40,996 bases of DNA, taken from Sphingomonadales bacterium. Its GTDB lineage: Bacteria > Pseudomonadota > Alphaproteobacteria > Sphingomonadales > Kordiimonadaceae. The stretch is taken from positions 1 to 40,996 of the forward strand of contig JAALKD010000028.1 of NCBI GenBank assembly GCA_011088215.1, read 5' to 3'. The translations under genes and the position numbers were made by a program. Under the pieces are notes generated by a model, which ran no database searches, was not told the origin of the DNA, and was given only the letters and a program-made list of their open reading frames with translations. Positions 6,215 to 31,882 of this stretch are shown piece by piece. How positions within the stretch are numbered: the first letter of the stretch is position 1; each line of letters opens with the position of its first letter.

Positions 6215-7470
6215 CTATCTAGCGGGCGAACCGGTCTTGTCAAGCCATGCCGCCGCACCAAGTGCAGCCTGCCGCCCTTGCGCAAGGCACGCGGTTAATA
6301 AGTAACCGCCGGTTGGTGCATCCCACGCCACCATTTCACCAGCACAGAAGGTGCCGGGCAGGGCAGTTAGCATCAGGTTTTTGTCCATTGCCCCAAAGGG
6401 CACCCCCCCAGCCACACTGATTGCTTCTTCTATAGGACGAGCAGAATTGATTGGTAATTGAAGACATTTTATTTTGGTCGCGATTTTTTCCGGGCTGTTT
6501 AGGTCGTCACCAGACGCGAATTCGCGCAGCAGTCCCAATTGCACGCCCTTCAGGCCGGTTTTGCGGCGTATATGGTCTGTAAGAGACCGTTTGCCCCGGG
6601 CTTCGCTCAGTCGCGCTTTCAAGCGGTCGACAGGCTGATCTGGAGCAAGGTCGAAGGTAGTCATAGCTTGGCCATTGCCTTCTATCGCTGCTGCTAGGGC
6701 CGCCGATATTTTGTAAACCGTCCCACCCTCAATACGTGTTTGGTGATCATGACATCACCCTTAGCGGTTTTTTCCCCAGTTTTGGGTCCGGTTTTTATCA
6801 CGCAGTTTTTAACGGGCTGGCCAGCAAAGCGGTCTCGGAAATGCTCACTCCAATTAACGTTAAAGCCGCAGTTGACGGAACGAAACGGGTCTAGGGTTAC
6901 ACCGTTAGCGACAAGCGGCTGCTGCCACTCACCGACCGAACCTAGCTTTGGCCAGCTTGTGCCGCCCAGGGCCAGGATAGTGGCGCGCGCGTCCACCCTG
7001 AAGACACCGTCAGGGCCAGAGAAGATCAAGTGTTTGCCGTTTTCGCTCCAGCCTTGCCATAGTGAACGCGTATGTAGCTTAACGCCCAGATCGTCCAAAC
7101 GCCGTAACCATGAGCGTAACAAGGGTGAGGCTTTAAAGGCCTTGGGGAAAACACGGCCGGACGAACCGATGAATGTCTCAATGTCCAGGCCCTGTGCCCA
7201 TTGGCGTATTGCAGTATTAGGAAAGGCATGTACTGGCTCGGACAAATGTTCCGCCATTTCGCCGTATCGTGCTGTAAAAGCGTTTAAGTTTTCGCTGTGA
7301 GTGAGATTGAGGCCTGATTTTCCAGCCATCAAAAACTTGCGGGCAGGGGTGGGCATTCGCTCAAACAGTACGGCTTTATAGCCTTGATGCGCCAGCTGCT
7401 CAGCTGCCATCAGGCCAGCTGGTCCAGCGCCTATAATCGCCACATCACATTTTGTCGCTGAAGTCGCCAT
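6215..7470 (-). pseudogene. TIGR03862-type FAD flavoprotein (HI0933-like), broken by a 1-base frameshift
   Basis: The first part (7470 to about 6736) has the dinucleotide-binding motif VAIIGAGPAGLMAAEQ, LMAGKSGLNLTHSE, and LALGGTSWPKLGSVG typical of BaiN/HI0933-like flavoproteins of unknown function. The frame then reads out to a stop at 6694-6696. The second part (from about 6735 to 6215) encodes the expected C-terminal half ending in GTFCAGEMVAWDAPTGGYLL, which closes the FAD site. Adding one G in the minus-strand string CACGTATTG (so CAC GGT ATT GAG) restores one 418-residue frame through HGIEGGTVYKISAALAAA. The start at ATG 7470 is preferred because AGAGG lies just upstream; a GTG at 7488 is the alternative. 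It is either a recent mutation or a sequencing indel. Confidence 0.85.
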
Positions 7471-7629
7471 ATGGCCTCTTTTTTCCACAACAAGCTTTTA
7501 GGCGCTGCGGGCTGTTTGAGCAATCTATTAAGCGGAATTGATTAATCTGATGATTTCAACAATAAATTGGTTATTGGCATATGGCAGAGGTTTCTCGTAA
7601 TGTTGAATTTGCACTGTTGAGATTGCCTT

Positions 7630-7660
7630 TTGTATTCTTTTTCAGTGGTAAAAGTATAAT
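7630..7660 (+). promoter_or_regulatory. Candidate sigma-70-like promoter of ctlX
   Basis: The 234-base gap between the divergent flavoprotein and ctlX genes is AT-rich and holds a perfect TATAAT at 7655-7660. The best -35-like element, TTGTAT at 7630-7635, is 19 bases away, which is longer than optimal. It lies 44 bases before the ctlX ATG. Weak evidence; nothing else was recognised in the gap. Confidence 0.3.
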
Positions 7661-7704
7661 AAAAATAATGGCCTAGTAAATATATTTAAGGTAATAGTTA
7701 AGCT

Positions 7705-8631
7705 ATGGACCACCGCAGCGCACAAACCCCATCAGCCGTTATATTGATCAGGCCGCATCATTTTTCGCCCAATCAGGAAACTGCAAACGACAATGCTTTC
7801 CAGCAGTCTGTTGCGGGCCAGGACTTGGACATGGTGGCGCGGGCGGCCTACAGTGAAGTTACCCGTGCAGCAGAACAGCTGAATTTTGCCGGCATTCAAA
7901 CCCATATTTTTGAGGATGAAACAACCCAAACGCCAGATTCGGTTTTCCCAAACAATTGGTTTTCAACCCATTCAGGGGGTCATGTCGCGGTTTACCCGAT
8001 GTTTGCTCACAATCGACGCCAGGAGCGGCGTTCGGATGTTATTGATATGCTTAAATCTACATACCGCGTGCAGGATGTGATCGATTATTCCGGGCTTGAG
8101 GCCGATGAATTGTTTCTGGAAGGAACAGGAGCCATGGTGTTGGACCATATTGAACGCGTGGCTTATGCGGTGAGCTCCAATCGCACTAACCCTGTGATTT
8201 TGGAGCGCTTTTGCACGCATTTTAACTATGAACCCATGGTTTTTGACGCGGCCGATGCTGGCGGCCTGCCCGTATATCACACCAATGTTTTGATGTGCAT
8301 CGCTACAGACTTTGCCTTGATCGGACTAGATATGATCGCAGACGTTGGGCGGCGCAGCGAAATTGTTGGCCGACTGGAAGCTTCTGGCCGCGATGTCATT
8401 GGCCTTAGTAATGAGCAAGTTTCCAATTTTGCCGGCAATGCCATTGAGCTCTACGGTAATTGCAGCCGCATACTTGTGTTGTCGGCGCGCGCACTTAAAG
8501 CTTTAACGTCGGAGCAGATTGCGCGCATTGAGGCCAGCGCGCAAACATTGGCGTTGGATGTTCCAACCATAGAGTATGCAGGCGGTTCAGTGCGCTGTAT
8601 GCTCGCAGGTGTGCATTTAAGTCCTAGATAG
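7705..8631 (+). CDS. ctlX: Citrulline utilization hydrolase CtlX / arginine-deiminase-related protein
   Basis: A 308-residue protein of the guanidine-group-modifying (amidinotransferase/deiminase) superfamily. The N-terminus SAVILIRPHHFSPNQET is typical of the CtlX subfamily. Further motifs are DSVFPNNWFSTHSGG (substrate-binding Asp/Asn region), EGTGAMVLD (catalytic acid), YHTNVLM (catalytic His) and, at the C-terminus, GGSVRCMLAGVHL with the nucleophilic Cys. CtlX has been linked to citrulline use; related enzymes hydrolyse arginine or dimethylarginine, and sequence alone does not separate them. All catalytic positions appear intact. ATG at 7705 has AAGG about 12 bases upstream. It stands alone and is convergent with the downstream diguanylate cyclase. 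Confidence 0.85.
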   Translation: MDHRSAQTPSAVILIRPHHFSPNQETANDNAFQQSVAGQDLDMVARAAYSEVTRAAEQLNFAGIQTHIFEDETTQTPDSVFPNNWFSTHSGGHVAVYPMFAHNRRQERRSDVIDMLKSTYRVQDVIDYSGLEADELFLEGTGAMVLDHIERVAYAVSSNRTNPVILERFCTHFNYEPMVFDAADAGGLPVYHTNVLMCIATDFALIGLDMIADVGRRSEIVGRLEASGRDVIGLSNEQVSNFAGNAIELYGNCSRILVLSARALKALTSEQIARIEASAQTLALDVPTIEYAGGSVRCMLAGVHLSPR

Positions 8632-8764
8632 TAATTTCCCATAATATAAATTATGCGTTTATTTTATACGCTTTGTTCAGGGTTTATCTTGTACGCTCGA
8701 ATAGCTTAACCTTCGGCCAGTTGATCTAATTCCGGTTTGCGACGAATTTATTCGGTGAACGCCC

Positions 8765-9763
8765 CTATTCCCGCAGTAAATCTAGATCTATAATATTAAT
8801 CTTGTTGCAATTTCGGCCCGCGGATTTGGCCTCGTAAAGTGCGGCGTCACTACGGTCGATCCAGGCATTGACGTCATCGCCCTGTTGTACTTCAGACAGG
8901 CCGCCGCTCACAGTGACCTTAATATCATTATAGAATTTATATTCTTGAATTTGGGAGCGCAAATCCTCCGCTAGATGCACCGCGTTTTGCAGCGACGTGT
9001 GACGTAGTAAAATTGCAAACTCTTCGCCGCCATAGCGAAAGAACTGGTCGCTTTTGCGCACCCTGGCGTGGACGAGATCGGACACCTGTTGCAGAATTTT
9101 GTCGCCTGCCAAATGGCCATGAACGTCGTTGACCTTTTTGAAAAAATCCAAGTCAAAAAGATAGAGTATAGCGGTGATCTGGTAGCGCTGGTGTTCCTCT
9201 TGTGCGATTTCGATCGCCGTGTGGAATGTGTGGCGGTTAAGCGCCTTGGTTAGCGGGTCGCGCGTTGCCACGCCGTTTAGCCGTGCGAGTAGCCGGTCAA
9301 TGAGGAGGGAAAAAATGCCTGAAACCAGCCCTGAAAGAATGACAGTTCCATAGATGCGATAAAGAACGTCCTGATTGAAATGCGGTGCAATAAGGTAAAA
9401 ACAAAGCAGGGCAAATACTGCAGTACCAATTGAGGCGTCAACCAGCGTCAACAGCAGGAAAAGAACAGCAACGGTAACATATATCCAGTAAACACCGTAT
9501 GCGGGGTTTGCGTATATCGCATATAGAATTGTCGTCGGCAGAATTAACAGAACACCACGACCACGCCATAGGTAATGCTGCTTCTTGTGCAGAAAATGTA
9601 CGATGCCGGCAAAGTAACAACTACATAGCAAACTGATGCTGCCAAGCTGTGGGTGTCCGGTGGAAAATTGCAGAACCGAAAAAAGGGCGGCAAACGCCCC
9701 GCCAAGGCCATTGATGTATAGCCTGAGTTTAAGCTTATAATCTGTGATTTCCGTTAGAATCAC
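8765..9763 (-). CDS. Membrane-bound diguanylate cyclase (GGDEF domain)
   Basis: Makes the second messenger c-di-GMP from two GTP. About 180 N-terminal residues form five or six hydrophobic helices (for example GLGGAFAALFSVLQF and VYWIYVTVAVLFLLLTL) with no recognised sensor domain. The GGDEF domain begins at TRDPLTKALNRHTF, has DLDFFKKVNDVHGHLAGD, and carries the active-site motif as YGGEEFAILL. An RxxD inhibitory site (RKSD) lies five residues before GGEEF, so product inhibition is expected. Start GTG at 9763 is preferred because AGGTGG lies about 7 bases upstream; TTG at 9823 would add 20 residues. No EAL domain is present. Confidence 0.92.
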   Translation of the reverse strand: MILTEITDYKLKLRLYINGLGGAFAALFSVLQFSTGHPQLGSISLLCSCYFAGIVHFLHKKQHYLWRGRGVLLILPTTILYAIYANPAYGVYWIYVTVAVLFLLLTLVDASIGTAVFALLCFYLIAPHFNQDVLYRIYGTVILSGLVSGIFSLLIDRLLARLNGVATRDPLTKALNRHTFHTAIEIAQEEHQRYQITAILYLFDLDFFKKVNDVHGHLAGDKILQQVSDLVHARVRKSDQFFRYGGEEFAILLRHTSLQNAVHLAEDLRSQIQEYKFYNDIKVTVSGGLSEVQQGDDVNAWIDRSDAALYEAKSAGRNCNKINIIDLDLLRE

Positions 9764-9882
9764 GGTACGACCACCTCTCTCCGGTTGTTTGGTAACACAA
9801 CCGTAACGAGATTTGGTTTCCAATAGATTAATGGATATTGGTGCAGAGGCGGGATCACTTCAGTCAGTTCAGCATAAAGCTG

Positions 9883-9908
9883 GCAGGCATCCATGTGCGG
9901 ATGCCTGC
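9883..9908 (-). terminator. Strong hairpin downstream of the chemoreceptor gene
   Basis: GCAGGCATCC at 9883-9892 and GGATGCCTGC at 9899-9908 form a perfect 10-bp stem with a 6-base loop, starting 10 bases after the stop of the MCP gene on the minus strand. The tract following it on that strand (CAGCTTTAT) is only weakly U-rich, so termination efficiency is uncertain, but position and stem strength fit a terminator for the PAS-MCP operon. Confidence 0.65.
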
Positions 9909-9917
9909 TGTATTTAA

Positions 9918-11042
9918 CTAGCTGTTGAGGACTTCCTCAAGCTTTTGTGCCTGGTCACCAAGGTTGCCTGCCACGGAAAGCAGGTTTCCGGACACATCTT
10001 TTACCTCCTCAACATTGCCGTTAACATCAATGATATTACTGGTGACATCGGTGACACCGACTGACACTTCTTCCACATTACGGGCAATTTCCTTGGTTGC
10101 CGCGCCCTGCTCTTCCACAGCTGCAGCGATCGAAGAGGAAAATTCGCTGAGGGAATTGATTGTTTTTCCAATATCGCCAATCGAACCCACTGCCGTGGTT
10201 GTTGCATTTTGGATTTCGGTGACTTGCTGCTGGATATCGTCAGTTGCCTTGGCGGTTTGTACAGCCAGGCTTTTTACTTCTGATGCAACAACCGAGAAAC
10301 CACGCCCCGCATCACCCGCCCGTGCCGCTTCGATGGTGGCGTTTAGCGCAAGTAGATTGGTTTGGCTGGCGATGTCATTGATCAGCCCCACGACGGTTTC
10401 GATTTGCTTGGATGCGTCAGATAGCCCTTTAACCAGTTCGTTGGTTTTTTGCGCCTCATCGATCGCCTCCTGGGCTAAGTCAGTTGAGCGCGTTACCTGT
10501 TGATTGATTTCCTGAATCGATGTGTTTAGCTGCTCTGCGGCGGAGGCCACAGTTTGGGCATTTGTGCCAGCTTCCTCAGCAGCGGCAGAGACTATCGTTG
10601 TCTTTTCTGTTGCTTGGCCGACGGATTGATTGAGACCCTCTGCACTGGCATTAAGATCGTTTGACGCTTCGGCGATGGAGCCAACAATGGCTTGAAACTC
10701 GTTCATTTTATTTTCAATGCCGTTAGCTGCCAAATTTATTTCATTGGCAGCCGTGCCGTATGATCCAAGTAGTCCGTGGGGTGAAATTCGGCGGAAATAC
10801 TGGTTTTTGGCAATAAAGCCGAGCGAGGCGGTACTTTCCCGCACATAAGCATCGGCTCGGTCTATCATTTCGTTTATGCGATTACATAAGTCACGCTCTA
10901 TGCCATCTTCGATTGTTATGCCGCCAATGCGCGACTCAAAATTACCTGCGCACACGTCGGTTACGACCGATAAAATATCCTTCATTTTTGCAGGGTTAAC
11001 ACTATTATCAGTTGCAGCATCAATATTTTGAAGTCCATCCAT
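9918..11042 (-). CDS. Soluble methyl-accepting chemotaxis protein (signalling half of a split Aer-like receptor)
   Basis: A cytoplasmic chemoreceptor with no transmembrane segment. The C-terminal 250 residues are the MCP coiled coil, with the conserved tip around NDIASQTNLLALNATIEAAR and AGRGFSVVASEVKSLA, which contacts CheA and CheW. The N-terminal 100 residues contain a HAMP-like/helical linker (ICNGNF-like VCAGNFESRIG, and RINEMIDRADAYV). The upstream gene encodes a PAS sensor and ends about one base before this start, so they are translationally linked. ATG 11042 has AAGGA 8 bases upstream; ATG 11051, overlapping the PAS gene by 8 bases, is the other choice. It probably signals energy or redox state through the partner PAS protein. 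No CheR-docking pentapeptide is seen at the C-terminus. Confidence 0.9.
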   Translation of the reverse strand: MDGLQNIDAATDNSVNPAKMKDILSVVTDVCAGNFESRIGGITIEDGIERDLCNRINEMIDRADAYVRESTASLGFIAKNQYFRRISPHGLLGSYGTAANEINLAANGIENKMNEFQAIVGSIAEASNDLNASAEGLNQSVGQATEKTTIVSAAAEEAGTNAQTVASAAEQLNTSIQEINQQVTRSTDLAQEAIDEAQKTNELVKGLSDASKQIETVVGLINDIASQTNLLALNATIEAARAGDAGRGFSVVASEVKSLAVQTAKATDDIQQQVTEIQNATTTAVGSIGDIGKTINSLSEFSSSIAAAVEEQGAATKEIARNVEEVSVGVTDVTSNIIDVNGNVEEVKDVSGNLLSVAGNLGDQAQKLEEVLNS

Positions 11043-11043
11043 G

Positions 11044-12154: not shown

Positions 12155-13325
12155 TTAGCGGTTCAATGTCAGATAGTCTTCGGCCACGCGGGCATCAATG
12201 TCTATTGGTACCGGCACTACACAATCGCCAGTACCACCCCCTATTCCTTGGCCTTTCTGCTGGGCTATGCGTTCCAGACACCTGGCTTGAAGGGCAAAGC
12301 CGATGTCCATGGATTCGATCGAATTGCCAAGCGGTCGAGGTCCGGAGAGATTGACCATGTGGCCGGCACTGAGAATATGCACCGTTCGTCCGTCATTCAA
12401 AGTCAGGCTTTCGATGCCCTCTTCCGAGTATGCGGCGCAGTGAACGACTGAGGGGCTCGCTTTAATTGCAGCCACATCGATTTCAGTTGGAAAATGTCTG
12501 CCGTTCATCAAGATTACACCGTCTTTTAGATCGGGGATATCATCGGCAATGATGATATTCTCTGCACCAGTCTCGGTAACGATCACGTCGGCACTTTTTA
12601 TCGCATCGCGGCGCAGCGGCGTGGCAAAGCCGTCAAAGTGGGCCGAGAGGGTTGTGACAGGATTGGTGTCGACGACACTGACGGTGCTATAGGCGGCGCG
12701 AAAACAGGCAGCAACCCCCTGCCCGCAGGCCCCGTAGCCAAACACCGTCACTCGTTTGCCGTTGGTGGCGCGGTTTGTCAGCCGCATGTAGCTTTCAAAA
12801 ATGCTTTGGCCGACAGCATGCTTGTTTTCGGCAAACTGTTTAATGGGGCTGTCATTGATCACCAGAATTGGCATGGCAAGCTGCTCGCGCAGCGGTTTTA
12901 ACCGCATGCGGCCGGAGGTTGTCCCCTATAAGGCCGTCATAGGGGTTATTCAGATAACCGGCGAAAAGGTCCCCGCCGTTATCCAGCAACAGATCTGGTT
13001 TTTCCGCCAAGATTCGCACAGGTGATTGGTCGTGGACATCGCTGTCCATGGTGGTCTCGGCGAACACATCGATATTATTGGCCTGAAGAAAATCAACTGT
13101 GGTCGCTTGGGTGCTGTTCAGGTTACCAGTAGCGACAATACGGGCGCCGCCAGCGCGCAGCGTTAGCAAAAGCGCGACTGTTTTGGGCTCCAGATGAATG
13201 CCGGTGCCAATGGTCAGCCCTGCGAATGGCAGGGTCATCTTAAATTCTTCGGTGATCGCAGCTAAAAGCCTGCAGCTGCGATGAACCCAATTGATGCGGG
13301 TGTTGTGGTTTGAGTCAGTGGCCAC
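12155..13325 (-). pseudogene. Adenosylhomocysteinase-like gene, broken by a frameshift
   Basis: S-adenosylhomocysteine hydrolase cleaves SAH to adenosine and homocysteine using bound NAD. The first frame (13325-12852) gives the N-terminal substrate domain: LTLRAGGARIVATGNLNSTQ and PDLLLDNGGDL. The second (12907-12155) gives NDSPIKQFAENKHAVGQS, the NAD-binding TVFGYGACGQGVA and a C-terminal substrate region. The break falls at a run of four C (plus strand) at 12923-12926; removing one G from the coding strand, or adding two, joins the frames through TTSGRMRLKPL. The residues expected before TTSG (a SEE-like segment) are also absent, so a slightly larger deletion is possible. The start is a GTG; the protein is divergent from canonical SAHase and may have been a paralogue rather than the main enzyme. 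Confidence 0.8.
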
Positions 13326-13494
13326 TCTTTTGCCCCATGCGATATGTTCTCGTTATCAAAATACACTAGATGGCGCCCCCAGTTATGGCAACAAGCACAT
13401 GCCAATGGCATATTCCTACTTGTACTTGGCCAATGACAGCCCGCCGATTGAATGATACTGGGTAATGGGACTTAGGGATTAGGGAGCCACAATC

Positions 13495-14718: not shown

Positions 14719-14722
14719 TTAT

Positions 14723-14860: not shown

Positions 14861-15525
14861 ATGCAAAAAGCCTGGATAAGCCTGACAACATTGATAATTG
14901 TAGTTCTGTTGACACCGCGGTTAGCGGCTCAGGACAGACCAGCTGCTACACCAGACAGGGCGGAGGTCTTTGAATTTTCGGGCGGCAAAACCATTGAACT
15001 GGATTATTATCTGCCGAACGGTTTTGAGGCCCAAAAACCTTATCCCGTCATGCTGGCGCCAGGGTCATTCTTTTTACAAGACGACCCTGCGGCGTTTGGG
15101 TGGGTGGTAGTTCGCGCAGGTATAGGCGATCGCCGTTTCACGACCAAAGACGTCGAAACAGTGTTGGACCACCTTTCGGTAATGGTTACGCCGCGCGGCG
15201 GTCAGTTCCATATCATGGGCTATAGCGCTAATAGTGGTGGGATATTTCGTGTCGCAGCGGCTTTGCCGGCCCGGTTTGCCGGTGTGTTAGCGATTCCGGG
15301 GCACCCGAGGCAACGCAGGGAATATGAAGCATTAGCGGGAATGAAAATTCGGTTCATTGTTGGTGAGCGGGATGGCTACTGGTTGCGGGAAGCAAAAAAA
15401 GCCCATACCCAGTTCATGGCACTTGGTATTGATACAGATATCGAAATTGTTGAAAATGGGGGCATGTGTTGAAACGATTGGCTGGCGAGCCCCTATTTAG
15501 AAGGATCGGCGACTGGTTTCGTTAA
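14861..15525 (+). pseudogene. Secreted alpha/beta-hydrolase-like protein with a C-terminal frameshift
   Basis: The N-terminus is a signal peptide (hydrophobic stretch LTTLIIVVLL, then RLAAQD). The body resembles a small serine esterase/peptidase fold, with a Gly-x-Ser-x-Asn-Ser motif at IMGYSANSGGIFR as possible nucleophile elbow and DGYWLREAKK near the acid position. As sequenced the frame ends at TGA 15470-15472. Adding one G to the five-G run at 15458-15462 continues it as ENGGHVLKRLAGEPLF and ends at TAA 15523-15525, supplying the GGH histidine expected at the end of the catalytic triad and giving 221 residues. The natural length of the reconstructed frame makes an indel more likely than a true short end. 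Substrate unknown. Confidence 0.7.
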
Positions 15526-17477: not shown

Positions 17478-17553
17478 AAATTGAGCGCATATTGATACAC
17501 TACATATTCAAGGGTTGTACTATGTAACCTTAGGTAAGTTGGGGCGCCAGTTA

Positions 17554-19626
17554 TTGTCAGAGTTTCGCTACAAAGCGTTTATCAGTTATAGTCATCAAAA
17601 CAGCCAAATTGCAGCTCGGCTTCTGAAAAAGCTCGAGGGTTACCGCGTTCCCGCACATTTAAATGCTAGCCGTAGGCGGTTTGAGAAGGCCCCCAACACC
17701 CTCGGTAGAATGTTTCGCGACCGCGAAGAATTATCCGCATCTGTTAGTCTTGATTCGAAGCTTCTTGATGCAATCAAACAATCTGAATTTCTGATTGTTG
17801 TGTGCTCCCCTGATGCTGCGGGATCACGTCGGGTTAACGAAGAAATCACTCAGTTCATCAAACACCGCGATAGTAGAAATGTTCTTTGCTATATTGTTGA
17901 AGGCGAACCGGAGTTTGGGCCGATAACCGGACAGCTAACACAAGATTGTGTTTCGCCGGTACTGCGCAAGCAGTATATTCAGTCGGGTCAAATTCCAGTG
18001 GCGGCGGATGCTCGCGAGATTGGCGATGGCCCTTCACGGGCACTCCAGAAGATAATTGCCGGTTTGCTGGAGGTTGGGCTGGATGAGCTAGTACAGCGAG
18101 ATGCGCGGAGGCACCAAAATCGGCTGGTGATGGTTGCGGCAATTTCGGTTGGGTTCGCCCTCTTAACTACAGGATTGTTGGTACGAGCGAATTTGGCAGA
18201 AGGTGCGGCGCAACAAGCCACTCTTGATGCTCAACTTCAGAACGAACGTGCCGAAGACTTGATCCATTTTATGGTTGAAGATTTGGTCGGGATTAAACTT
18301 GTCCAACTTGGACGGTTAGATGTCATTGATGCTGTTATTGTCAAAGTGGCGACGCACTATTCACAGCAAGATGATGACAAACTCGGGCCTTTGGGGTTGG
18401 CTAGAACAGCACAAGCTTATCAAAAGCTTGGACAATTGTATTTAAATGGAAATATGCACGAATCCGCTGACGAATTATTTGAATATGCCAATCGAACAAC
18501 CGCTGCGCTAACAGAAAGATTTCCAGACTCTGAAGAGGCGGTTTTCGCACATGTCCGGGGTCTTTACTGGGTTGGTTTGAGTAATATTTTTCGCGGGCGT
18601 TATACCGCCGCAGAAAATATATGGAGGGAACGGGTAGATTACGGCGAAGTTTTGCTTCGAGAGCCGGAACATTCGCCAAAAGTATGGGCTGGACTCGGTG
18701 ATATTTATGTTCATTTAGGCTGGTCTTTGATGGAGTTAGGCCGTGTTGAAGAAGCCTATGTCGAGTTCAAAAAGGGTCTAGACTTGCGTCAGGCTAATGC
18801 AGACCGCTATCCCGAGGACATCAGCTGGCTGAATAGCCTCGCCGGTGGTTTTTATCATATGCAATGGGCAGAATTATACCTTGGCATGAACGAACAAGCG
18901 CTGAAAAATGCGTTAATATCAAATAAAACCTATAAAAAACTGACGCTTGCTGATCCCTTGGATCAACGCGCTCGCGGAAATTACGCTCGGAGCTTGCGGT
19001 GGTTGGCAGAGGCAGAAATCGCAAATGCCCAATTCGGCGAAGCAGCCACCCATCTGAGAGAATCCATAATAGTCCATAAGAAGTTATTGGATTTTGAACC
19101 TAATGAACTGACTTTTCGTTACCAGGCTTGTGTTAGTTCGGTAATGTTGGTGGAGGTGTTGATCGCAGATGGCAAGCCCGAGGAAGCAAAAAAGGCGAAT
19201 AATAGTGTTTGCGGCGATTCAACTGCGGTTTTGGCGCTTGACCACCCAGTCGCACACAATAGATTTTATGGCTACCGCCGCGAGCTAACCCGAATAAAAC
19301 TGGAGATGTTGGACGGGCATAATGAGCGGGCCGCGCAAAAACTTACCATTGCTACATCTCGGTTTGAGCGAGAATCAACGGAAATAAAAAATTCCCTGCT
19401 GGGTCGACGTATTGCCCTTTCGTTGGCTATTGATGCCGTAGAATTGGGCAGTCAAATGGCTAATTTGCCGAACGCGAAACGGGGATTATGGGGCATAGTT
19501 GCGAAGATTAGTTCAGGTTTCGGGACTTTACATAGTCCGACCGCGAGATTGCTATCGCGGGCAAAGCAGCTTTCAACTGAAACTTCTGGTGAAATTGAAA
19601 CTGACTCATTATCAATTAATTTTTGA
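17554..19626 (+). CDS. TIR domain – transmembrane – TPR protein
   Basis: A roughly 690-residue protein. Residues 4-120 form a bacterial TIR domain: FRYKAFISYSHQNSQIAARL, then MFRDREELSAS, then LIVVCSPDAAGSRRVNEEI; the glutamate in the last motif is at the place of the catalytic Glu in TIR NADases, although the usual nearby Trp is replaced by Arg. A transmembrane helix follows (about 190-212, MVAAISVGFALLTTGLLV). The C-terminal 450 residues are helical with tetratricopeptide-like repeats, for example YQKLGQLYLNGNMHESADELF. TTG 17554 is preferred as start because GGGG lies 9 bases upstream and the protein then begins (M)SEFRYKAFISYSH as in homologues; TTG 17515 would add 13 residues. It follows a LytTR pair. 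Role in defence or signalling is unknown. Confidence 0.85.
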   Translation: MSEFRYKAFISYSHQNSQIAARLLKKLEGYRVPAHLNASRRRFEKAPNTLGRMFRDREELSASVSLDSKLLDAIKQSEFLIVVCSPDAAGSRRVNEEITQFIKHRDSRNVLCYIVEGEPEFGPITGQLTQDCVSPVLRKQYIQSGQIPVAADAREIGDGPSRALQKIIAGLLEVGLDELVQRDARRHQNRLVMVAAISVGFALLTTGLLVRANLAEGAAQQATLDAQLQNERAEDLIHFMVEDLVGIKLVQLGRLDVIDAVIVKVATHYSQQDDDKLGPLGLARTAQAYQKLGQLYLNGNMHESADELFEYANRTTAALTERFPDSEEAVFAHVRGLYWVGLSNIFRGRYTAAENIWRERVDYGEVLLREPEHSPKVWAGLGDIYVHLGWSLMELGRVEEAYVEFKKGLDLRQANADRYPEDISWLNSLAGGFYHMQWAELYLGMNEQALKNALISNKTYKKLTLADPLDQRARGNYARSLRWLAEAEIANAQFGEAATHLRESIIVHKKLLDFEPNELTFRYQACVSSVMLVEVLIADGKPEEAKKANNSVCGDSTAVLALDHPVAHNRFYGYRRELTRIKLEMLDGHNERAAQKLTIATSRFERESTEIKNSLLGRRIALSLAIDAVELGSQMANLPNAKRGLWGIVAKISSGFGTLHSPTARLLSRAKQLSTETSGEIETDSLSINF

Positions 19627-20753: not shown

Positions 20754-20764
20754 ACGAGCCCCCA

Positions 20765-21820
20765 CTAATTCTTATTCAGCACAATCTCACCCTGCATAAC
20801 CAGCGTAGGTTTGCGCAAAACAGAAATATCGGTGATCGGGTTGCCTTTCACCGCGATCAGTTCTGCGAGCATACCGACTTTTACTTGGCCAATCTGGTCG
20901 GCCATATGTAACAAGCTGGCGTTAATCGATGTAGCACTGCGTAATACGTCAACCGGCTTCATGCCATATTCAACCATCAATTCGAGTTCCCAGGCGTTGT
21001 CGCCGTGATCAAATACTCCAACATCAGACCCGGCGCACATGATAACACCGGTCTGCAGTGCAGCCGCAAAAGATGCTTTTTGCGCGGTGATGCGCTTGGG
21101 CTCAGCCCCCTCGCCTTTTTTCCAGCCTTGATAACCGGCAATTGCTTCGCCAGCTGCTAGCGTTGGACACCATGCAACGCCTCTATCTTTCATCAAATTG
21201 AAAATTTCAACGGTACCTGCATTGCCGTGTTCGATAGTTTCTACACCTGCCATTATTGCTCTGCGCATAGCTTCCGGTGTGGAGGCGTGCGCGACGGTGT
21301 ATCGGCCATATGACCCGGTAGCCACAATTGCTTTACCAGCAACAATCAATCGAGGGCCTACAATTACACCTTTCTGCAATGCCTGTTTAACGCCCACGTC
21401 CACATAGCCAGCGCCTTCGCTACCCAGGTCGCGTAGCGTGGTGTATCCAGCTTCCAGTGAAGCTTTTAAATGGTTGCCTGCCCTTAACGCGCGTTCGGCC
21501 CAGGATTCCTTCAGAACCTGATCATTCCAGTTGGTTTCGTCGTAGGGGTGAAGCAGTACATGGCTGTGAAGCTCGATCAAGCCAGGCATAAGCGTTTGAC
21601 CGGGCAGTTGCACGATCTCGGCAGCACTTTGTTCCAAACTGTCAAGAGCAGCAATTTGAACGATACGCCCGTTTGACACCAATACTGCTTTGCCCGTGAT
21701 GAGTTCTGAGGATCTTCCGTCAAAAATGGCATCTGGCACCAGAATAACGTCATCCGCCCATACTGGCGCGACTACAATTGTTAACCACAGCACAAATGTG
21801 GTCCGTAAAAGATACTTCAT
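20765..21820 (-). CDS. Secreted amidohydrolase (COG1228, imidazolonepropionase-like) with an internal deletion
   Basis: The protein begins MKYLLRTTFVLWLTIVVA with a signal peptide (start ATG 21820, GGGGAT upstream) and is a TIM-barrel amidohydrolase: the first metal pair is in LIELHSHVLLH, later histidines in VAHASTPE and GVETIEHGNAG, and the catalytic Asp in CAGSDVGVF. Between KAIVATGSYG and RYTVAHAS the family normally has roughly 60 residues, including the lysine that is carboxylated and bridges the two metals. Here these two blocks are directly joined, in frame, at about 21304-21307. At about 351 residues it is clearly shorter than its relatives. Without that lysine it is probably inactive. 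The deletion could be real or an assembly collapse. Homologues are dipeptidases or cyclic-imide/ester hydrolases; substrate unknown. Confidence 0.82.
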   Translation of the reverse strand: MKYLLRTTFVLWLTIVVAPVWADDVILVPDAIFDGRSSELITGKAVLVSNGRIVQIAALDSLEQSAAEIVQLPGQTLMPGLIELHSHVLLHPYDETNWNDQVLKESWAERALRAGNHLKASLEAGYTTLRDLGSEGAGYVDVGVKQALQKGVIVGPRLIVAGKAIVATGSYGRYTVAHASTPEAMRRAIMAGVETIEHGNAGTVEIFNLMKDRGVAWCPTLAAGEAIAGYQGWKKGEGAEPKRITAQKASFAAALQTGVIMCAGSDVGVFDHGDNAWELELMVEYGMKPVDVLRSATSINASLLHMADQIGQVKVGMLAELIAVKGNPITDISVLRKPTLVMQGEIVLNKN

Positions 21821-23408: not shown

Positions 23409-23434
23409 TTAAGGTTTCTTAAGGATCCTTAAGT
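23409..23434. promoter_or_regulatory. Three TTAAG repeats at 10-bp spacing, overlapping a 16-bp palindrome
   Basis: TTAAG occurs at 23409, 23419 and 23429, exactly one helical turn apart, and positions 23418-23433 form a perfect palindrome (CTTAAGGATCCTTAAG). The site lies in the 218-base gap between the divergent ToxR-like regulator and the secreted two-domain protein. Winged-helix regulators of the OmpR/PhoB type bind tandem repeats with roughly 10-11 bp periodicity, so this looks like an operator for the neighbouring regulator. No promoter elements were convincingly identified around it. Confidence 0.55.
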
Positions 23435-23511
23435 GTGCCTCTGGCTTAGTTTTATGTCCGGAAAAACTGTGGGCAAGATAACCGCCGACAATGAAACTGC
23501 GAGGAAGAAAA

Positions 23512-24693
23512 ATGATCAAAGTTATAAAAAACGCCCTTTATGCTGCTGCGGTGATAACCACTGCGCCAGCCTGGCTGGTGTTGGCACAGGATATCGACGC
23601 GGCAAATTGGGAGTTGTCCGAAAATGGTGCTCAGATAGTTGATCATCTGGGCCGGCAAAGTATTCAGCTAAATAACGGTATTGCTGAATTGAAAGACACG
23701 GCTTTTCAAAATGGCACAATAAGCTTCGATATTGCCATGGCAGAAAAACGTGGATTTGCGGGCGTTTATTTTAGGCGAAATGACAATTCAGCAGAATATT
23801 TCTATTTGCGGTCGCACATGTCCGGTAATCCTGATTCCAACCAATACACACCTAATTTCAACGGCGTTTCCGGATGGCAATTGTATCATAGTCCGAGGTT
23901 CAGTGCGCCGACTGTATATAAATTCGACCAGTGGCTTCCTGTAAAGCTCGTCATCAAAGATAATAAAATGGACGTCTATATAGACAGTGTTGAACCCGTT
24001 CTGCACGTTGATAACCTAATGGGCCCAAAAGCCGCTGGAGGAATTCGCCTCGGTGGAGGATTTCAACAATTTTATTTCAGCAATGTCAAAATTGTCGCGG
24101 ACAATTCAGTCGCGACTGTCGGTACGGCTGCACCACGCGCTGAGCTGCCAGATAATTTGATTACAAAATTCAGCGTGGCCAGCACAGCTGTTCTAGGAAC
24201 TTCAGTGGAAGGCAAAGCTGAGTTAGATAGAAAGTTGCTGTAAGGACAGGTATGGCAAACTCTGGAAATTGACGAAGCCGGTGTTGGCAACTTGGCCCGC
24301 GTTTCGGGCCGGACACGGGACGTAAATACATTGCTGGTACGCAAAACTCTGACCGCTGACACCGCAAAAACCATCCAATTTCAGTACGGTTTCAGTGATA
24401 GAGTTACCGTCTTTCTCAACGGTAGGGCAATTGCTTACGGTGATGATACATATGTCACACGTGATTACCGTCACTTAGGAACCATTGGCCTTTATGACAG
24501 TGTCTTTTTGCCGTTAAAACGAGGCAAGAACGAATTGATATTCGCGGTTAGTGAGGTTTTGGTGGCTGGGGTATCAAAGCCGCGATGGACCCTGTTGCCG
24601 GCGTTCAAGTGGATTAGCTCCTCCATGAACGCTGCCTCTGGAGAGGCCCGGGCAGACTTGACCCCTGCCCGGGTTTTTCAGTTTAGTCGATAA
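23512..24693 (+). pseudogene. Secreted LamG/DUF1080-like two-domain protein interrupted by an in-frame TAA
   Basis: The chosen start ATG 23512 has GAGG 7 bases upstream and gives a signal peptide ending near LVLAQD. Residues 28-205 resemble a concanavalin-like (DUF1080/LamG) domain: GTISFDIAMAEKRGFAGVYF, WLPVKLVIKDNKMDVYID and GGIRLGGGFQQFYFSNVKI. TAA at 24241-24243 then stops the frame, but the same frame continues at once with GQVWQTLEIDEAGVGNLARV and a second beta-rich domain (DRVTVFLNGRAIAYGDD, LPLKRGKNELIFAVSEV) like a galactose-binding or carbohydrate-binding module, to TAA at 24691-24693. No frame change is needed, so this is a nonsense codon in a natural 393-codon gene. Its end overlaps the convergent gene by 11 bases. 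It may bind glycans; no catalytic residues were seen. Confidence 0.75.
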
Positions 24694-25858: not shown

Positions 25859-25957
25859 CAGCTTGCTCTCCTGTTGTTGACACAACGTAACTATAGGGCG
25901 CGATTTGTGCTTTGCGACCCAAATAAATTTTTGCCGTTAAACGATGTGTTAATTTGG

Positions 25958-26747
25958 TTAAAACGAATACCCGAAGGCAAGAAACATCGACAATGTTGTT
26001 CGTCGGTCGACGATGGGGCTATTGACAATGGAATCGCTGTACAAAGTTGGCGCGGCGGAGCTGATTAGTGTGAACTTTTCAGACAGCCGGTAAATGCCGG
26101 TAAGTGCTGCCCTGCCCTGCAAGCCTATCGCCGGCTCGATAGAATGCTCGGCCCGCGCGTTGGTTTGCCAGTGACACGCCGTATAAGTAGTTGGTCAGCT
26201 TATCGTCGGACCATTGCAGAGTCACTGACGGGGCCAGTGATAATTTTCGGTTGATACTAAAGGGTCGGCTAATTGCAGCAGTCGCCCGCCAGCCTTCGCT
26301 GGCGAAGCCCAGTTCCCGCTGCACCGTGCCGGTTAGGACGATGTCTGAGACATCTACATCAAGCGCTACACCGCCGTATATTGGCAGCCCGAGGTTTTCC
26401 ATATCATTGAGCCGGCCGACGTCGTTCCGGTTTTGTTCATTGATACCCACCTCTGCGACAAACGATAGGCGGTAACGATCGTCTTTGATGACCTCATAAC
26501 CGAGGCCTGCCTGGTTCGAATAAAATCGACCCTGGCGAAAGTTAATGAAGGGGAAAGCGTTGATTTGGAACGAGCCGCCTTCGAACTCTACCTGCCCCGC
26601 AGATGCTGCTGCTCCAATCGCAAAAAAGTTTGGAGGGCCGCCTTTTTCGTTAAGTGGGCCTTGTTTTGGTCGGTCTTGCGCTGACAATATGTTGGAAATG
26701 CAGAATTGTACGAGTATTGCGACAATTAGTAGAAAGGTTGATTTCAT
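25958..26747 (-). pseudogene. MipA/OmpV family outer-membrane protein, frameshifted near the C-terminus
   Basis: ATG 26747 opens a signal peptide (FLLIVAILVQFCISNILSAQ). The body shows alternating beta strands of the MipA/OmpV barrel: FFAIGAAASAGQVEF, GLGYEVIKDDRYRLSFVAEV, LGLPIYGGVALDVDV and GWRATAAISRPF. As sequenced the frame ends at 26079. Between about 26112 and 26135 the coding moves to another frame, which continues as AALTGIYRLSEKFTLISS, then IVNSPIVDRRTTLSMFLAFG and YSF with stop at 25958; the terminal aromatic residue is what an outer-membrane barrel needs for BAM recognition. The net change is one base too many or two too few. The protein as sequenced would lack its last strands. 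MipA proteins interact with murein-synthesis enzymes in E. coli; here the role is unknown. Confidence 0.8.
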
Positions 26748-26869
26748 CGATGGGTACTCATTTGGCTGGGCGGCAAGTGTGTGCCAACTTCGTGAACCGC
26801 TTTTTACGTGTCGGTTCAATAGCCAGATCAAATGATCAACAATAAATGCTTTGAAAAATACTAGAGCGG

Positions 26870-27739
26870 CTATTCAGTGCGGCTTTCAAGGATTTTGGTC
26901 ACTTGCATATAGTCGCGCGGTGAATCCAAATCGATTGCGGCTTCCGCATAGGGAAGCTTAATGGCCACCCCCTCGGCACCCAGCACTTTTGATGCCCGTT
27001 GGAAAGCGTCTTTGACGGTAAAGCGACGCAACATCAGGCCAAGCAGATTGATAAAACCGAACGCCTTGAACAGTTTAAATGGGCTTTTGCGCTCGTTTTC
27101 GACATTTTTCCAGAATTCTAAAATTTTGACGCTGTCCTGGGACATAACGGCGAACAGGTTCGCGCCGGAAAGCTTGGTGTCTTTAAATGGAAGATATGTG
27201 CGTTTGGATTCCGGGTGCATTGCCTTGATATATTTTTCCTCAACAAATCCCGCGCCAAAACCTTTTAAATGCTGGGCCTCGGCACAGAAATAGTCAACCA
27301 CCTCGGGAATTAACAATGCGTGGTCTGCAGTTGTTACCAGATAGGGGAATTGGCTACCGGTTTCTTCGATAGCCTTGATAATACTTTGGCAAATGGATTT
27401 GGCCGTCGCCACCACTTTAACGTTGGCTGCGTCTAGTTCGTCTTTGAGTTTGCTGCATGACGCAAATAGTTCTTCCTGGCCATCAAACACCACGTGAATA
27501 TCGCCGACAGAAGGTGAAACCCTCAGTGCATCGACAGCATAAGCTATCATTGGGCGGCCCATCAGGGGAACTAACGCTTTGTATTTATGACCAAAAATCG
27601 ATGCAACAGGATCGTTGTCGTTGCGTTTTCCCGCCAAGACAATCGCTGTGAATTGTACGTCAGAACCGGCTATGACCTTGGCGGTTGACGTATCGGCAGC
27701 ATCGGCTGTCCCGTTGGTGTCAGGCGGGTTTAATGTCAT
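26870..27739 (-). CDS. Nucleotidyltransferase family protein (NTP_transf_3, MobA-like fold)
   Basis: A 289-residue protein whose domain starts after about 28 Pro/Asp/Ala-rich residues with FTAIVLAGKRNDNDPVASIF, a variant of the LAGGxGxR nucleotide-binding loop, followed by KALVPLMGRPMIAYAVDAL. The metal-binding aspartate is in YLVTTADHALL near residue 145. Near the C-terminus are LPYAEAAIDLDSPRDYMQV, typical of the sugar-phosphate/alcohol-phosphate nucleotidyltransferases that end with an ID-x-D-x-P-D motif. The region between contains a hydrophobic segment (LFKAFGFINLLGLMLRR), unusual for a soluble enzyme of this fold, suggesting membrane association or a lipid-linked substrate. A PAP2 phosphatase and a glycerophosphodiesterase follow on the same strand upstream in the window. 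The activated product is unknown. Confidence 0.8.
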   Translation of the reverse strand: MTLNPPDTNGTADAADTSTAKVIAGSDVQFTAIVLAGKRNDNDPVASIFGHKYKALVPLMGRPMIAYAVDALRVSPSVGDIHVVFDGQEELFASCSKLKDELDAANVKVVATAKSICQSIIKAIEETGSQFPYLVTTADHALLIPEVVDYFCAEAQHLKGFGAGFVEEKYIKAMHPESKRTYLPFKDTKLSGANLFAVMSQDSVKILEFWKNVENERKSPFKLFKAFGFINLLGLMLRRFTVKDAFQRASKVLGAEGVAIKLPYAEAAIDLDSPRDYMQVTKILESRTE

Positions 27740-27921
27740 TTGGTTCGGGCCTCAAATACTCTTTAACGCAATTACGTGGCAAAACAATCAACAACTGTGT
27801 TTGTTGGCGTGTCGCGAGATTGTTATAGCTTGCCCTGTTTAGTTAGACTGACAAGGGATAAAAGGCAATGAAAGCTTCTGTCAGCTAGCGAGACTAGCGC
27901 CAGAGGGTGTTTTTGATCTGG

Positions 27922-28554
27922 TTATGCATTGCGGACTCTATCGTAGCCCACCTTGCACAGTAACAACCAAAAACCGGCGATTAACCAAGCAGCCACGATG
28001 TCAGTCGGCCAATGCACGCCCAAGTAAACACGACTTATCCCATTCATTAAAATTACACCAGAAGCTATTGAAAATATTACATAATTCAACTTTTTTGGAC
28101 AGACTTTTAACAATAGATATGCCAGCAAGCTATAAATTACTGCTGACCGCAACGTGTGTCCGCTGGGGAAACTGGCGCTGGAGGCTGAAACTATCTGTTC
28201 GACAATTTCCGGCCGGTCCCGACCGAACGTCCATTTGGCTACCGCGGTAATGATGAAAGAGCCTGCGGCTGCCAGTAAAAACCAATGTGCAGCCTGTTTT
28301 TCATTGCGCCAATATAAAACACCAATGGTTATGAGGCTTATGACTGCCAAAACAATGGAATCTCCCAAATGGGTTAGACTAGCGACCAATGTTTGCCAGA
28401 AGTCGCCAACTATCACCGTTGGCGAATTTCCGCGTAGTAGTAGAATGCCGTTTTCGTCAAATTTGGCGGTATAGCCTTGCATAACAAGGAATGCGAGACA
28501 GACAAATAGCCCTACCGGCAATATAAGTAGCGCACGATTTCGCAGGTTAGTCAT
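27922..28554 (-). CDS. PAP2 family membrane phosphatase
   Basis: A 210-residue protein with about six hydrophobic helices and the three-part PAP2 active site: KWTFGRDRP (K-x6-RP), SFPSGHTLRSA (PSGH) and SRVYLGVHWPTDI (SR-x5-H-x3-D). Such enzymes remove phosphate from phosphatidic acid, phosphatidylglycerophosphate, undecaprenyl pyrophosphate or lipid A; the specificity is not evident. ATG 28554 has GGGGA about 6 bases upstream. It lies between a glycerophosphodiesterase and a nucleotidyltransferase on the same strand, which suggests a lipid-headgroup or glycerol-phosphate role, an inference from context. Confidence 0.92.
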   Translation of the reverse strand: MTNLRNRALLILPVGLFVCLAFLVMQGYTAKFDENGILLLRGNSPTVIVGDFWQTLVASLTHLGDSIVLAVISLITIGVLYWRNEKQAAHWFLLAAAGSFIITAVAKWTFGRDRPEIVEQIVSASSASFPSGHTLRSAVIYSLLAYLLLKVCPKKLNYVIFSIASGVILMNGISRVYLGVHWPTDIVAAWLIAGFWLLLCKVGYDRVRNA

Positions 28555-28568
28555 TTAAATCCCCTATT

Positions 28569-28595
28569 CCCCACCTGGTTAACTTATCGGTGGGG
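28569..28595 (-). terminator. Possible hairpin after the glycerophosphodiesterase gene
   Basis: CCCCACC at 28569-28575 and GGTGGGG at 28589-28595 form a perfect 7-bp GC-rich stem with a 13-base loop, beginning three bases after the glycerophosphodiesterase stop and just before the PAP2 start. No U-tract follows on the minus strand, so it may be an attenuator or processing hairpin rather than a terminator. Confidence 0.4.
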
Positions 28596-28598
28596 GCC

Positions 28599-29546
28599 CT
28601 ATTTTGCCAGCCTTTGTTGCGTATAAATGAACAGGTTAGGATTACGGATTTCCTGCTGCACCGCCCAAAAACGGTCTGTGGCGATAATGTCTGCGCCCAT
28701 GGCAACAATTTCTCGGTATGAAACGCCGGTTTTTTTGTCTCTGATTTGGTTGTCCAACGCGCTCGCGCCGCGGCCTAATGTTCCGACTATAGTGCGCCAG
28801 CCACGTTGGTGCAGTTTTGTATAAAAGGCAGGTTCCAGCAGGCGCGTACCGGTCCAGGCGACCACCAGTCGGCTTGGTATACCGCTGGCATTCAGTCTTT
28901 CAATGGCCTGATCGTCGGATAGACCAATTGAAATAGGCATCTCAGGGGCAACATTGTAGAAAGCCTGTGCTTGCTCAATGGAGTATGCGATTGACATGCT
29001 GTAATCTTCGGCCCCGGTTTGTTTCACTAACTGCGCTACTTTCCTGAAGTCAGTACCGCGTTTTATGTCCAAGGTAAGGACAGTACGCCCAATAGACCAT
29101 TTAAGAGCAGCTTCCAGTGTCGGAATACGAAAATTGGTTAAAGTTCCATCGTTGTCTTTTAGCCGAAGGTCTTTGATGTCATCCCATGTTTTATCTTGTA
29201 ACCCACCGTTGCCGTTGCTGGTGCGGTCCAGAGTATCATCGTGCAACAATATAAGCGTGCCGTCCTTCAGTTGGGCAACATCCACTTCCATTAGGCCGTA
29301 GCCGTAGCTCAGCGCGTTATCCATGGCCTCCAGCGAATTTTCCGGCATGCCTGGCACCGGTCCGCCGCGATGATGACTCAACATGGGGATGGGGGAAGCT
29401 GGTCTTTGCATGAAGTCAGCAAGCCCGCCAGATGGGATTGTCAGGTAATGCCGGACGTTTGGGTCACGGGGCTTGGGAACCTGTTCACTGAAAACCGGCA
29501 AGGACAGCCCTGCTAGCAGTATAAACAGGCCGAATAATTTGGACAT
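28599..29546 (-). CDS. Secreted glycerophosphodiester phosphodiesterase family protein
   Basis: ATG 29546 (AGGAG about 11 bases upstream) starts a protein with a signal peptide (LFGLFILLAGLSLPVFSEQ). The GDPD TIM-barrel motifs follow: LSHHRGGPVPGMPENSLEAM with the HR and PENS elements, LMEVDVAQLKDGTLILLHDD with the metal-binding E-x-D and the catalytic HDD, and RTSNGNG. The second half has TLDIKRGTDF and ends MGADIIATDRFWAV. It hydrolyses glycerophosphodiesters to glycerol 3-phosphate and an alcohol, in the periplasm. About 315 residues. It is divergent from mazG across 84 bases. A PAP2 gene and a nucleotidyltransferase lie downstream on the same strand. Confidence 0.9.
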   Translation of the reverse strand: MSKLFGLFILLAGLSLPVFSEQVPKPRDPNVRHYLTIPSGGLADFMQRPASPIPMLSHHRGGPVPGMPENSLEAMDNALSYGYGLMEVDVAQLKDGTLILLHDDTLDRTSNGNGGLQDKTWDDIKDLRLKDNDGTLTNFRIPTLEAALKWSIGRTVLTLDIKRGTDFRKVAQLVKQTGAEDYSMSIAYSIEQAQAFYNVAPEMPISIGLSDDQAIERLNASGIPSRLVVAWTGTRLLEPAFYTKLHQRGWRTIVGTLGRGASALDNQIRDKKTGVSYREIVAMGADIIATDRFWAVQQEIRNPNLFIYTQQRLAK

Positions 29547-29630
29547 TTTGTTTTTGTCTCCTTGACGAACGGCTGCGGTGCGATGATACCAGAAGAGTAT
29601 TTCAACAGATTGCAAGTGAGCCACGTCCAG

Positions 29631-30448
29631 ATGCAACAACAATATTCGCGACATCAGTATTCCATGAATGACCTGCTGGATATCATGGAGAAATTACGAA
29701 CGCCGAAAACTGGTTGCCCATGGGACCTAGAGCAAACCTTCGAAACCATTGCCCCTTATACCATCGAAGAAGCCTATGAGGTGGATGACGCCATCCGTTC
29801 GGGTGATATGTCTGCACTGAGGGACGAGTTGGGCGATTTGTTGCTGCAGACAGTATTTCATGCGCGTATTGCTGAAGAAGGCGGTGACTTCACTTTTGAT
29901 GATGTCGTCGGGTCCATATGCGATAAAATGGTAAGGCGACACCCCATGTGTTTGGCGGTGCCAGCGTTGAAGATGCTGACGCTCAGACCGCTGAATGGGA
30001 GTTGCAAAAGGAGCAGGAGCGAAGAGCTGTTGCATCGGCCCAAGGCGCGGTGCCATCTGCTCTAGACGGGATTGCTGGCTCTCTTCCTGCTTTGTTGCGC
30101 GCAGTGAAGCTACAAAAACGGGCTGCGCGGGTCGGATTTGATTGGCCTGACACTGTCGAGGTGTTGGATAAAGTTCAAGAGGAATGCGCGGAGTTGGTAG
30201 AAGCACAGCAAAAACCAGATAATCATACCCATGTATACGAAGAATATGGTGACCTGATGTTTGTGATGGCAAACCTGGCCCGCCATCTCAAACTTGATCC
30301 GGAAGAAGCCCTGCGCGCTGCCAATGCGAAATTTGAGCGGCGCTTTAAGAAAGTTGAAGGCAAGATCGCAGCGCTTGGCAAGACTATGGAACAGTCCAGC
30401 CTCGAAGAAATGGATGCCCAATGGGACTTAGTGAAACGAGAAGAGTAA
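29631..30448 (+). pseudogene. mazG: Nucleoside triphosphate pyrophosphohydrolase MazG, broken by a 1-base frameshift
   Basis: MazG hydrolyses NTPs and dNTPs, including damaged ones, to monophosphates. The N-terminal half (to about 29945) has GCPWDLEQTFETIAPYTIEE and DELGDLLLQTVFHARIAEEG. After VRRHP the frame diverges and runs to a stop at 30065; the true continuation is in the next frame: HVFGGASVEDADAQ, EECAELVEAQQ and EYGDLMFVMANLAR, the second MazG helical repeat. Adding one C to the four-C run at 29942-29945 (CAC CCC CAT GTG) restores a 272-residue protein of the usual length ending at 30448. Start uncertain (29631, 29664 or earlier 29583); no clear Shine-Dalgarno. Conserved beside hflX in alphaproteobacteria. 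Real mutation and sequencing error both remain possible. Confidence 0.9.
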
Positions 30449-30470
30449 ATCTCCGACCTGTCTAATTACG

Positions 30471-31882
30471 CTAGCTAGCCCAGTAATTTGTGCCCTTGCT
30501 GTATTTCCCCCAAGCTATCGGATCAACGGTGAAGGTGAAGCGCGTACCATCCTCGGTATATTCGCTCTCAATAATTTTGCTGTTGGCGTGCAGCCATGCA
30601 GGAGTTTGCCCATCGTCAAAGGGAACGATAATTTCAACTTCAGATCTTTGTTACTAAGGGCTTTGTCCAGTGCAGCGATGAACTCATCGCATCCTGCGCC
30701 GGTCAATCCGGAAACGGGCATCGTGGTATTATTGCGCGCTCCAACACCCTGCCATTGTTCCAGCTCAGCAATACTCACCAGGTCAGACTTATTCATCGCT
30801 TCAAGAACCGGTGTGGCGTCATTATCAGCCGCCAGGTCGTAATTGAGATCCACGCCCAATTCGGCCAGTACGCCCTCTACGTCTTGCTTTTGAATATCAC
30901 TGTCGGGGTGTGAGGCATCGCGCACATGAACGATAAGGTCCGCTTCAAGCACTTCTTCCAGGGTTGCTCGGAAGGCAGCGACCAGCGTAGTTGGCAGCTC
31001 TGAAATAAACCCCACGGTATCAGACATTATGATTTTGCGCCCGCTGGGAAGCATGATTGAGCGCATGGTCGGATCAAGCGTGGCAAACAGCATATCTTCA
31101 GCCAGCACGTCAGCGTCAGTTAATCGGTTGAATAATGTTGATTTACCAGCGTTGGTATAGCCCACCAGGGCTACAGTCGGGTACGGAGTTTTTTGGCGCT
31201 GGGCGCGGTGCAGGTGCCTGGTTCGAGTTACCGAATCCAGCTGGCGCTTGATGCGAGTGATACGGTCTGCGATTATTCTGCGGTCTGCCTCAATTTGGGT
31301 TTCACCCGGCCCACCAAGAAAACCAGAGCCACCGCGCTGGCGTTCCAAATGGGTCCACGACCGGACCAACCGGCTTCGCTGGTACACCAGGTGTGCCAGT
31401 TCAACCTGCAGTTCGCCCTCTTTGGTGCTGGCACGATCACCAAATATTTCCAAAATCAGCGCGGTCCTATCGATAACTTTAACCTTGAGTTCTCTTTCAA
31501 GGTTTCGTTGTTGAATCGGGCTTAATTCGCAGTCAAATACAATCAGGTCGATTTCTTCCGCCTTGGCGAATTTCTTAAGTTCGGTGAGTTTTCCGCTGCC
31601 CAAATAGGTCGCTGGCTTAATTGTTCGTAGGCTCGCTGATTCCCCGCCCACCAAATCAATTTCAATGGCAGCCGCCAAACCCATCGCTTCTTCAAGCCTG
31701 GCGTCAGGCGAGCGAACAAGAAGGTCTGGCGCTTTATCTTTCAGGTAGGGATGCAGAACAAACACCCGCTGGCGGGTGACTTGTTTTTGCAAATAGGCAA
31801 GTCCATTGGTTGACCAACCGCCCCCACTCTCGCTGAGGTTGCCTGCATCTCCGGAATCGGATCGATCATTTTTTTGGGTCAA
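30471..31882 (-). pseudogene. hflX: GTPase HflX, C-terminal frameshift
   Basis: HflX binds the 50S ribosome and splits stalled or heat-damaged ribosomes. The GTPase motifs are intact: VALVGYTNAGKSTLFNRL (G1), SDTVGFISELP (G3) and MNKSD (G4), after the N-terminal helical region and GPGETQIEADRRIIADRI. As sequenced the frame ends at 30515 with an unrelated C-terminus. Adding one base at about 30635-30640 (AAGTTG to AAGGTTG on the coding strand) continues as DLKVEIIVPFDDGQTPAWLH and reaches TAG at 30471, giving about 470 residues; the C-terminal ferredoxin-like domain is what gets lost. Start TTG 31882 with GAGGA 6 bases upstream, right after the hfq stop. It is convergent with mazG, 22 bases apart. 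Confidence 0.9.

Follow-up and report, generated by a model that had tools for sequence, protein, structure and literature searches.

Eight disrupted genes on one contig of a likely Kordiimonas genome, and the case for recent gene decay

Intact and disrupted genes of the window

The window analysed here is the entire contig C79 (40,996 bp) of a 4.0 Mb genome in 147 contigs (G000), which is likely a member of the genus Kordiimonas. The nearest relative seen was G010, whose contig C217 is collinear with window positions 9558-40996 at 83.6% nucleotide identity; adding G003, G006, G014, G015, G017 and G018 brought the genomes compared over the window to seven. The calls of broken genes in the window rest on nucleotide alignment and tblastn, some being weak in the former and resting on the latter, and stop calls from nucleotide alignment alone were noisy and so were used only together with tblastn.

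The two ends of the window are in frame throughout. On the left (195..5996, forward strand) lie genes that, from their translations, we take to be tmk, holB, metG (also supported by PF00133) and TatD-like, metallo-hydrolase-like and retropepsin-like genes; no frame change was called among them against G015, G017, G014 or G003. On the right (31884..40996, reverse strand) are genes presumed, save where Pfam was run, to be hfq, trkH, trkA, ntrX, ntrY, ntrC and ntrB, the last cut by the contig end, and no frame change was called inside them against G010 (87% nucleotide identity over this part); contig C34 carries the ntr operon onward past this end. Thus the statement of the first-pass annotation that tmk, holB, metG, hfq, trk and ntr are clean proved correct. 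The contrast it drew between damaged genes and essential neighbours is, however, too small within one window to carry weight by itself: eight breaks could readily miss tmk, holB and metG by chance (P=0.43), and missing the whole named clean set has P=0.028, although that set was defined post hoc. The interior of the window also encodes a 703-residue protein (17515-19626) with an N-terminal TIR domain (a ThsB_TIR match was found too) and TPR repeats, which is 77% identical to its G010 counterpart and whose gene adjoins those of a sensor kinase and a response regulator.

Eight genes had been described as damaged, and comparison of the homologous loci bore this out for every one of them, each being disrupted relative to orthologs that are open in between one and seven relatives. 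Where clear frame changes inside window genes were seen against G010, all were losses on the window side.

The HI0933-like flavoprotein gene (6215..7488, reverse strand) is split into two open reading frames (6694-7488 and 6215-6664), both with pieces of PF03486, because the frame shifts somewhere from about 6697 to 6820. It is a single frame of about 417-441 codons in G015 (L009/L201) and G017 (L010), and the change was seen against both, in the case of G017 weakly by nucleotide alignment and visibly by tblastn. The S-adenosylhomocysteinase-like gene (12155..13325, reverse strand) has a net loss of 11 bp at about 12922, seen against G010 only, in which one open reading frame of 393 residues replaces the two that share the PF05221 and PF00670 pieces here. 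Also visible against G010 only is a net loss of one base at 15460 in a gene (14861..15522, forward strand) that carries the name secreted hydrolase from the first-pass annotation and gave no match in a Pfam search; the lesion affects the last ~22 of the 225 residues encoded in G010, near the C-terminus.

The amidohydrolase gene (PF01979; 20765..21877, reverse strand) has suffered an in-frame loss at 21301-21305 that amounts to 213 bp, or 71 codons, and not the about 60 codons first supposed. The lost codons are present in all seven relatives and cover the segment ADFIKVYA of the G010 protein, which we take to hold the metal-bridging lysine of the amidohydrolase superfamily; because the deletion covers this stretch, the product is predicted to be inactive even though the gene remains in frame. 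In the gene for a secreted protein with a weak match to 3-keto-disaccharide hydrolases (23491..24693, forward strand), which is open in all seven relatives, the TAA reported at 24241 is present, together with a second lesion that had been missed, a net loss of one base at 24554-24555. The gene for a MipA-like outer-membrane protein (PF06629; 25926..26831, reverse strand) is a single frame in four relatives, against which a frame change was seen at 26106-26172, weakly in the case of G014. It is missing from the collinear G010 contig, yet present in these four more distant relatives.

The last two disrupted genes each carry a net loss of one base. That in the gene for the MazG nucleotide pyrophosphohydrolase (29649..30448, forward strand), at 29942-29945, leaves PF03819 matches in both resulting frames of a gene that is open in all seven relatives. 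That in the HflX GTPase gene (PF13167, PF16360 and PF01926; 30480..31882, reverse strand), at about 30640, interrupts a frame open in six of the seven, G018 giving no call; the GTPase domain is kept and the last ~56 of 470 residues are replaced. Since HflX retains its GTPase domain and the secreted hydrolase loses only ~22 residues, the eight genes are not damaged equally, and several lesions near C-termini may have a mild effect.

Broken genes across the sampled genome

To set the window against the rest of the genome, 60 further stretches of G000 were sampled, giving with the window 1.08 Mb or 27% of the genome, together with 634 kb of G010. The stretches were chosen mainly through matches to GTPases, tRNA synthetases, HisKA, Mur ligases and ATP synthase, plus a few others, and genes were counted if they had at least 100 codons, at least 60% identity and a counterpart present. 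By this measure 19 of 355 genes that are open in G010 are broken in G000, compared with 2 of 380 in the reverse direction (P=6.5e-5), and outside the window alone the counts are 13 and 2 (P=0.0025). The genome-wide count of frameshifts that had been proposed was therefore made in part, and within that part the damage is not confined to the window. Breaks are denser in the window, which was picked for its damage, than elsewhere (6 in 31.0 kb against 13 in 334.1 kb, P=0.0015). Whether the window was included (P=0.13) or left out (P=0.11), the breaks did not cluster significantly in particular stretches.

The 13 broken genes outside the window encode bL25 (broken in its C-terminal part), an AcrB-type transporter, five histidine kinases, a serine carboxypeptidase-like protein (by an 88-bp insertion), gamma-glutamyltranspeptidase (at the C-terminus), an aspartyl-protease-like protein, a CxxCxxCC protein, a protein without a Pfam match, and DusB. 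The large share of histidine kinases reflects the use of HisKA matches in selecting stretches. In dusB (contig C34, L172:11588-12571) an in-frame TGA stands at codon 41 of a gene whose protein is 96% identical to that of G010, and it was kept in the count because the codons before it are conserved. The kinase gene in L176 was counted for an insertion of about 151 bp relative to G010 (L176:6193), a +1 change in the same gene being unreliable. The 88-bp insertion, at L162:7773 and again relative to G010, looks like a local tandem duplication. Judged by open-frame length, the listed tRNA synthetases, Mur ligases and GTPases other than HflX look whole; contig ends truncate mutS and one match to ATP synthase.

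These counts depend on how doubtful rows were treated. Of the G010 genes placed on G000, 32 were flagged and a further 14 were found by tblastn alone; 19 were kept and 27 dropped, most of the latter because, on the same strand of G000, a frame stays open over at least 80% of the length or because they lie antisense to a longer gene; two others are gaps of 66 and 87 bp that keep the frame. About seven of the dropped rows are doubtful, including L149:7583 (an 11-bp change near codon 65, at a stretch end), L161:10513 (near codon 50), L149:3300 (codons 26-42), L199:7360 (near codon 16), L185:6563 (a stop 65 bp from a contig end), and L186:1374 and L154:1860 (stops, strand unclear). For G000 genes on G010, 12 rows were flagged and 9 came from tblastn alone; the two kept include one (at codon 25) that is itself doubtful, and the others were window lesions seen in reverse, start differences, antisense frames and in-frame gaps. 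A count against G014, made in stretches picked for the housekeeping genes in them, gave 1 broken gene among 125 (126 kb) outside the window, where about 4.9 were expected (P=0.044). That result came from 12 rows, of which one was kept and one, with three stops and the strand unclear, was doubtful; admitting the doubtful row gives 2 of 125, which is not significant (about 0.13 by hand).

Most of the lesions are losses of one or two bases, with 16 frame changes in 365 kb, and they also include three stop codons, deletions of 11 bp and 213 bp and the 88-bp insertion. The mutation types are thus mixed, as had been stated for the window, and homopolymer error alone is not a sufficient cause. The accompanying claim that the frame changes are mostly of one base in or near G/C runs was half upheld: of four one-base window sites examined, 15460 and 29945 lie in G or C runs of at least 4, one lies beside a T run and one in no run. 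Over the larger sample, four of nine one-base losses fall within 3 nt of a run of at least 4, against a background of 14% (P=0.03).

Selection on the two branches and recurrence of the breaks

Nonsynonymous and synonymous changes (N/S) were polarised with an outgroup, which for the window genes was G015. The four broken window genes with an outgroup gave N/S of 71/211 on the G000 branch and 65/171 on the G010 branch, and so show no relaxed selection; the intact window neighbours gave 178/531 and 124/460 (P=0.11). Likewise, for five broken genes with an outgroup the values (109/271 and 81/220) were not different. Across 74 intact genes, N/S was 932/3224 (0.289) on the G000 branch and 652/2731 (0.239) on that of G010 (P=0.0009), with a bootstrap interval above zero. 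Purifying selection is therefore slightly weaker on the G000 branch across intact genes, although the effect is small. Thus the dN/dS comparison that had been suggested, run here as N/S, revealed a slight rise in the intact genes and no relaxation in the broken ones. As substitution in the broken genes is not relaxed, the breaks, if real, must be very young, and under an assumed neutral N/S of 2 to 3 they would be at most about 3-5% of the branch old. By hand arithmetic, substitution errors that produced the N/S excess would affect about 0.27% of sites, and as ~4% of random changes are stops they would yield about nine stops in 82 kb, whereas only three were kept in 365 kb; consequently, we take the excess as biological.

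The broken genes also lean towards the less constrained part of the gene set. When the gene set was divided by length into a more and a less constrained half, 5 of the 19 fell in the former and 14 in the latter (P=0.03), and the mean constraint of broken genes showed a weak shift only (P=0.07; pooled P=0.10).

Three of the window breaks, those of the amidohydrolase, the secreted protein and HflX, were searched for in a collection of 5.8 billion proteins. All three (the 71-codon loss, the TAA and the frame change) recur as the same broken products on a contig of 48,702 bp: a 351-residue amidohydrolase product (P0001) and a shortened secreted protein of 243 residues (P0241), both equal to those of the window, and a 455-residue HflX product with the window's tail (P0121). 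The last of these differs at residue 236, just before the P-loop, which is Thr in the window, Ile in P0121 and Ile or Val in two other relatives viewed, and this contig is therefore no copy of the window contig. It may nevertheless derive from the same reads. Among the matches listed (the best 120 of 7,978, the best 120 of 7,979, and 49), the homologs that rank next are full-length and share 90%, 91% and 89% identity, and an intact allele may be hidden inside a 90% protein cluster, P0121 itself standing for two members.

Origin of the breaks

The first-pass annotation held that gene decay and uncorrected sequencing error explained the breaks equally well. The evidence now leans towards real, recent decay, because all three of the breaks searched for recur, the lesions are mixed, the breaks lean towards less constrained genes and N/S is weakly raised; error in some of the one-base losses is still conceivable. 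We consider it probable that the eight window genes are real, very recent pseudogenes under mildly weakened selection. Dispensable genes would have been inactivated by separate small mutations (mostly losses of one base to 11 bp, with one stop codon and one 213-bp deletion), and these would have persisted because selection was weakened, each gene being observed after its break but before drift in the remainder of its sequence. The lesions would then exist in a living population, and the less efficient selection on the G000 branch would explain their persistence.

According to PMC11017572, many draft-genome pseudogenes are assembly errors, a known problem that would allow most of the one-base breaks to be uncorrected errors in a draft or metagenome-derived assembly, with only the larger lesions real. 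G000 resembles such cases in its one-base frame changes, some beside short runs, and in its fragmented assembly. The stop codons are few, an indel rate of about 1 per 23 kb would suffice, and the absence of relaxed selection in the four broken genes fits errors as well as it fits recent loss. Moreover, a search of the G000 contigs for the RpoB domain (PF00562) and ribosomal protein S3 (PF00189, rpsC) gave no match, against a stated completeness of 100%, so that a piece of the rpo/ribosomal cluster seems to be missing from the assembly. Against this, the HflX frame change is found with the other two on a second, non-identical contig, the breaks lean away from the more constrained half of the genes, and the stop codons and larger lesions, unlike draft artefacts, would require a separate cause; error is the main rival account, but on balance we think it an unlikely source of most of the one-base breaks. 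A mutator lineage that had lost mismatch repair would produce small deletions, and losses of one or two bases do make up most of the lesions, but the MutL frame (637 codons) and the MutS frame (643 codons, starting near a contig end) have no visible break in a partial alignment, and we give this explanation almost no credence.

Early host-restricted genomes such as those of Sodalis and Shigella hold many broken non-essential genes in a gene set that is otherwise complete, a feature shared by G000, and the first-pass annotation had offered a host-associated lineage as one setting for the decay. The excess of broken genes and the slightly raised N/S are in keeping with a recent move to host restriction, and Kordiimonas is reported with ascidians, sponges and corals. 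However, unlike in Sodalis and Shigella, only about 5% of the sampled shared genes are broken in G000, and the marks of later reduction were not seen: at 4.0 Mb the genome is within the range of the genus members compared (2.7-4.3 Mb), its G+C in the sample (0.512) lies among those of its relatives (0.449-0.529), and for transposases of the rve family (PF00665) there are two short matches in G000, none or one in six relatives and 12 in G008. Host restriction thus appears very improbable as the cause. A reading of wider scope, which we hold only tentatively and would place a little short of even, is that G000, a genome of undiminished size from a genus whose members mostly live freely, has only just entered gene decay: ~1/20 of its shared genes would already be disabled, in most cases by one hit, selection would be weaker by a barely measurable amount, and no reduction, base drift or transposon bloom is yet seen.

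If the breaks are real, comparing G000 with G010 offers a way to date the earliest stage of gene decay, while secondary decay has yet to obscure it; if they are errors, the genome deserves a warning in reference collections. Two tests of decay against error that need no reads are also illustrated: whether lesions recur on a second contig, and how polarised N/S behaves in broken as compared with intact genes. As an instance of a genome starting to decay, G000 may be a good but ordinary example. According to PMC2916853, the lesions of young bacterial pseudogenes are chiefly short deletions and stop codons, those of Salmonella enterica being mostly single-hit and rich in short deletions, and Salmonella genomes under less efficient selection hold more pseudogenes. 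G000 shares the single-hit majority and the predominance of short deletions, whereas stop codons are more frequent in Salmonella (131/346 lesions against 3/20, P=0.054), in a comparison of several Sanger-finished genomes with one draft under differing definitions of a pseudogene.
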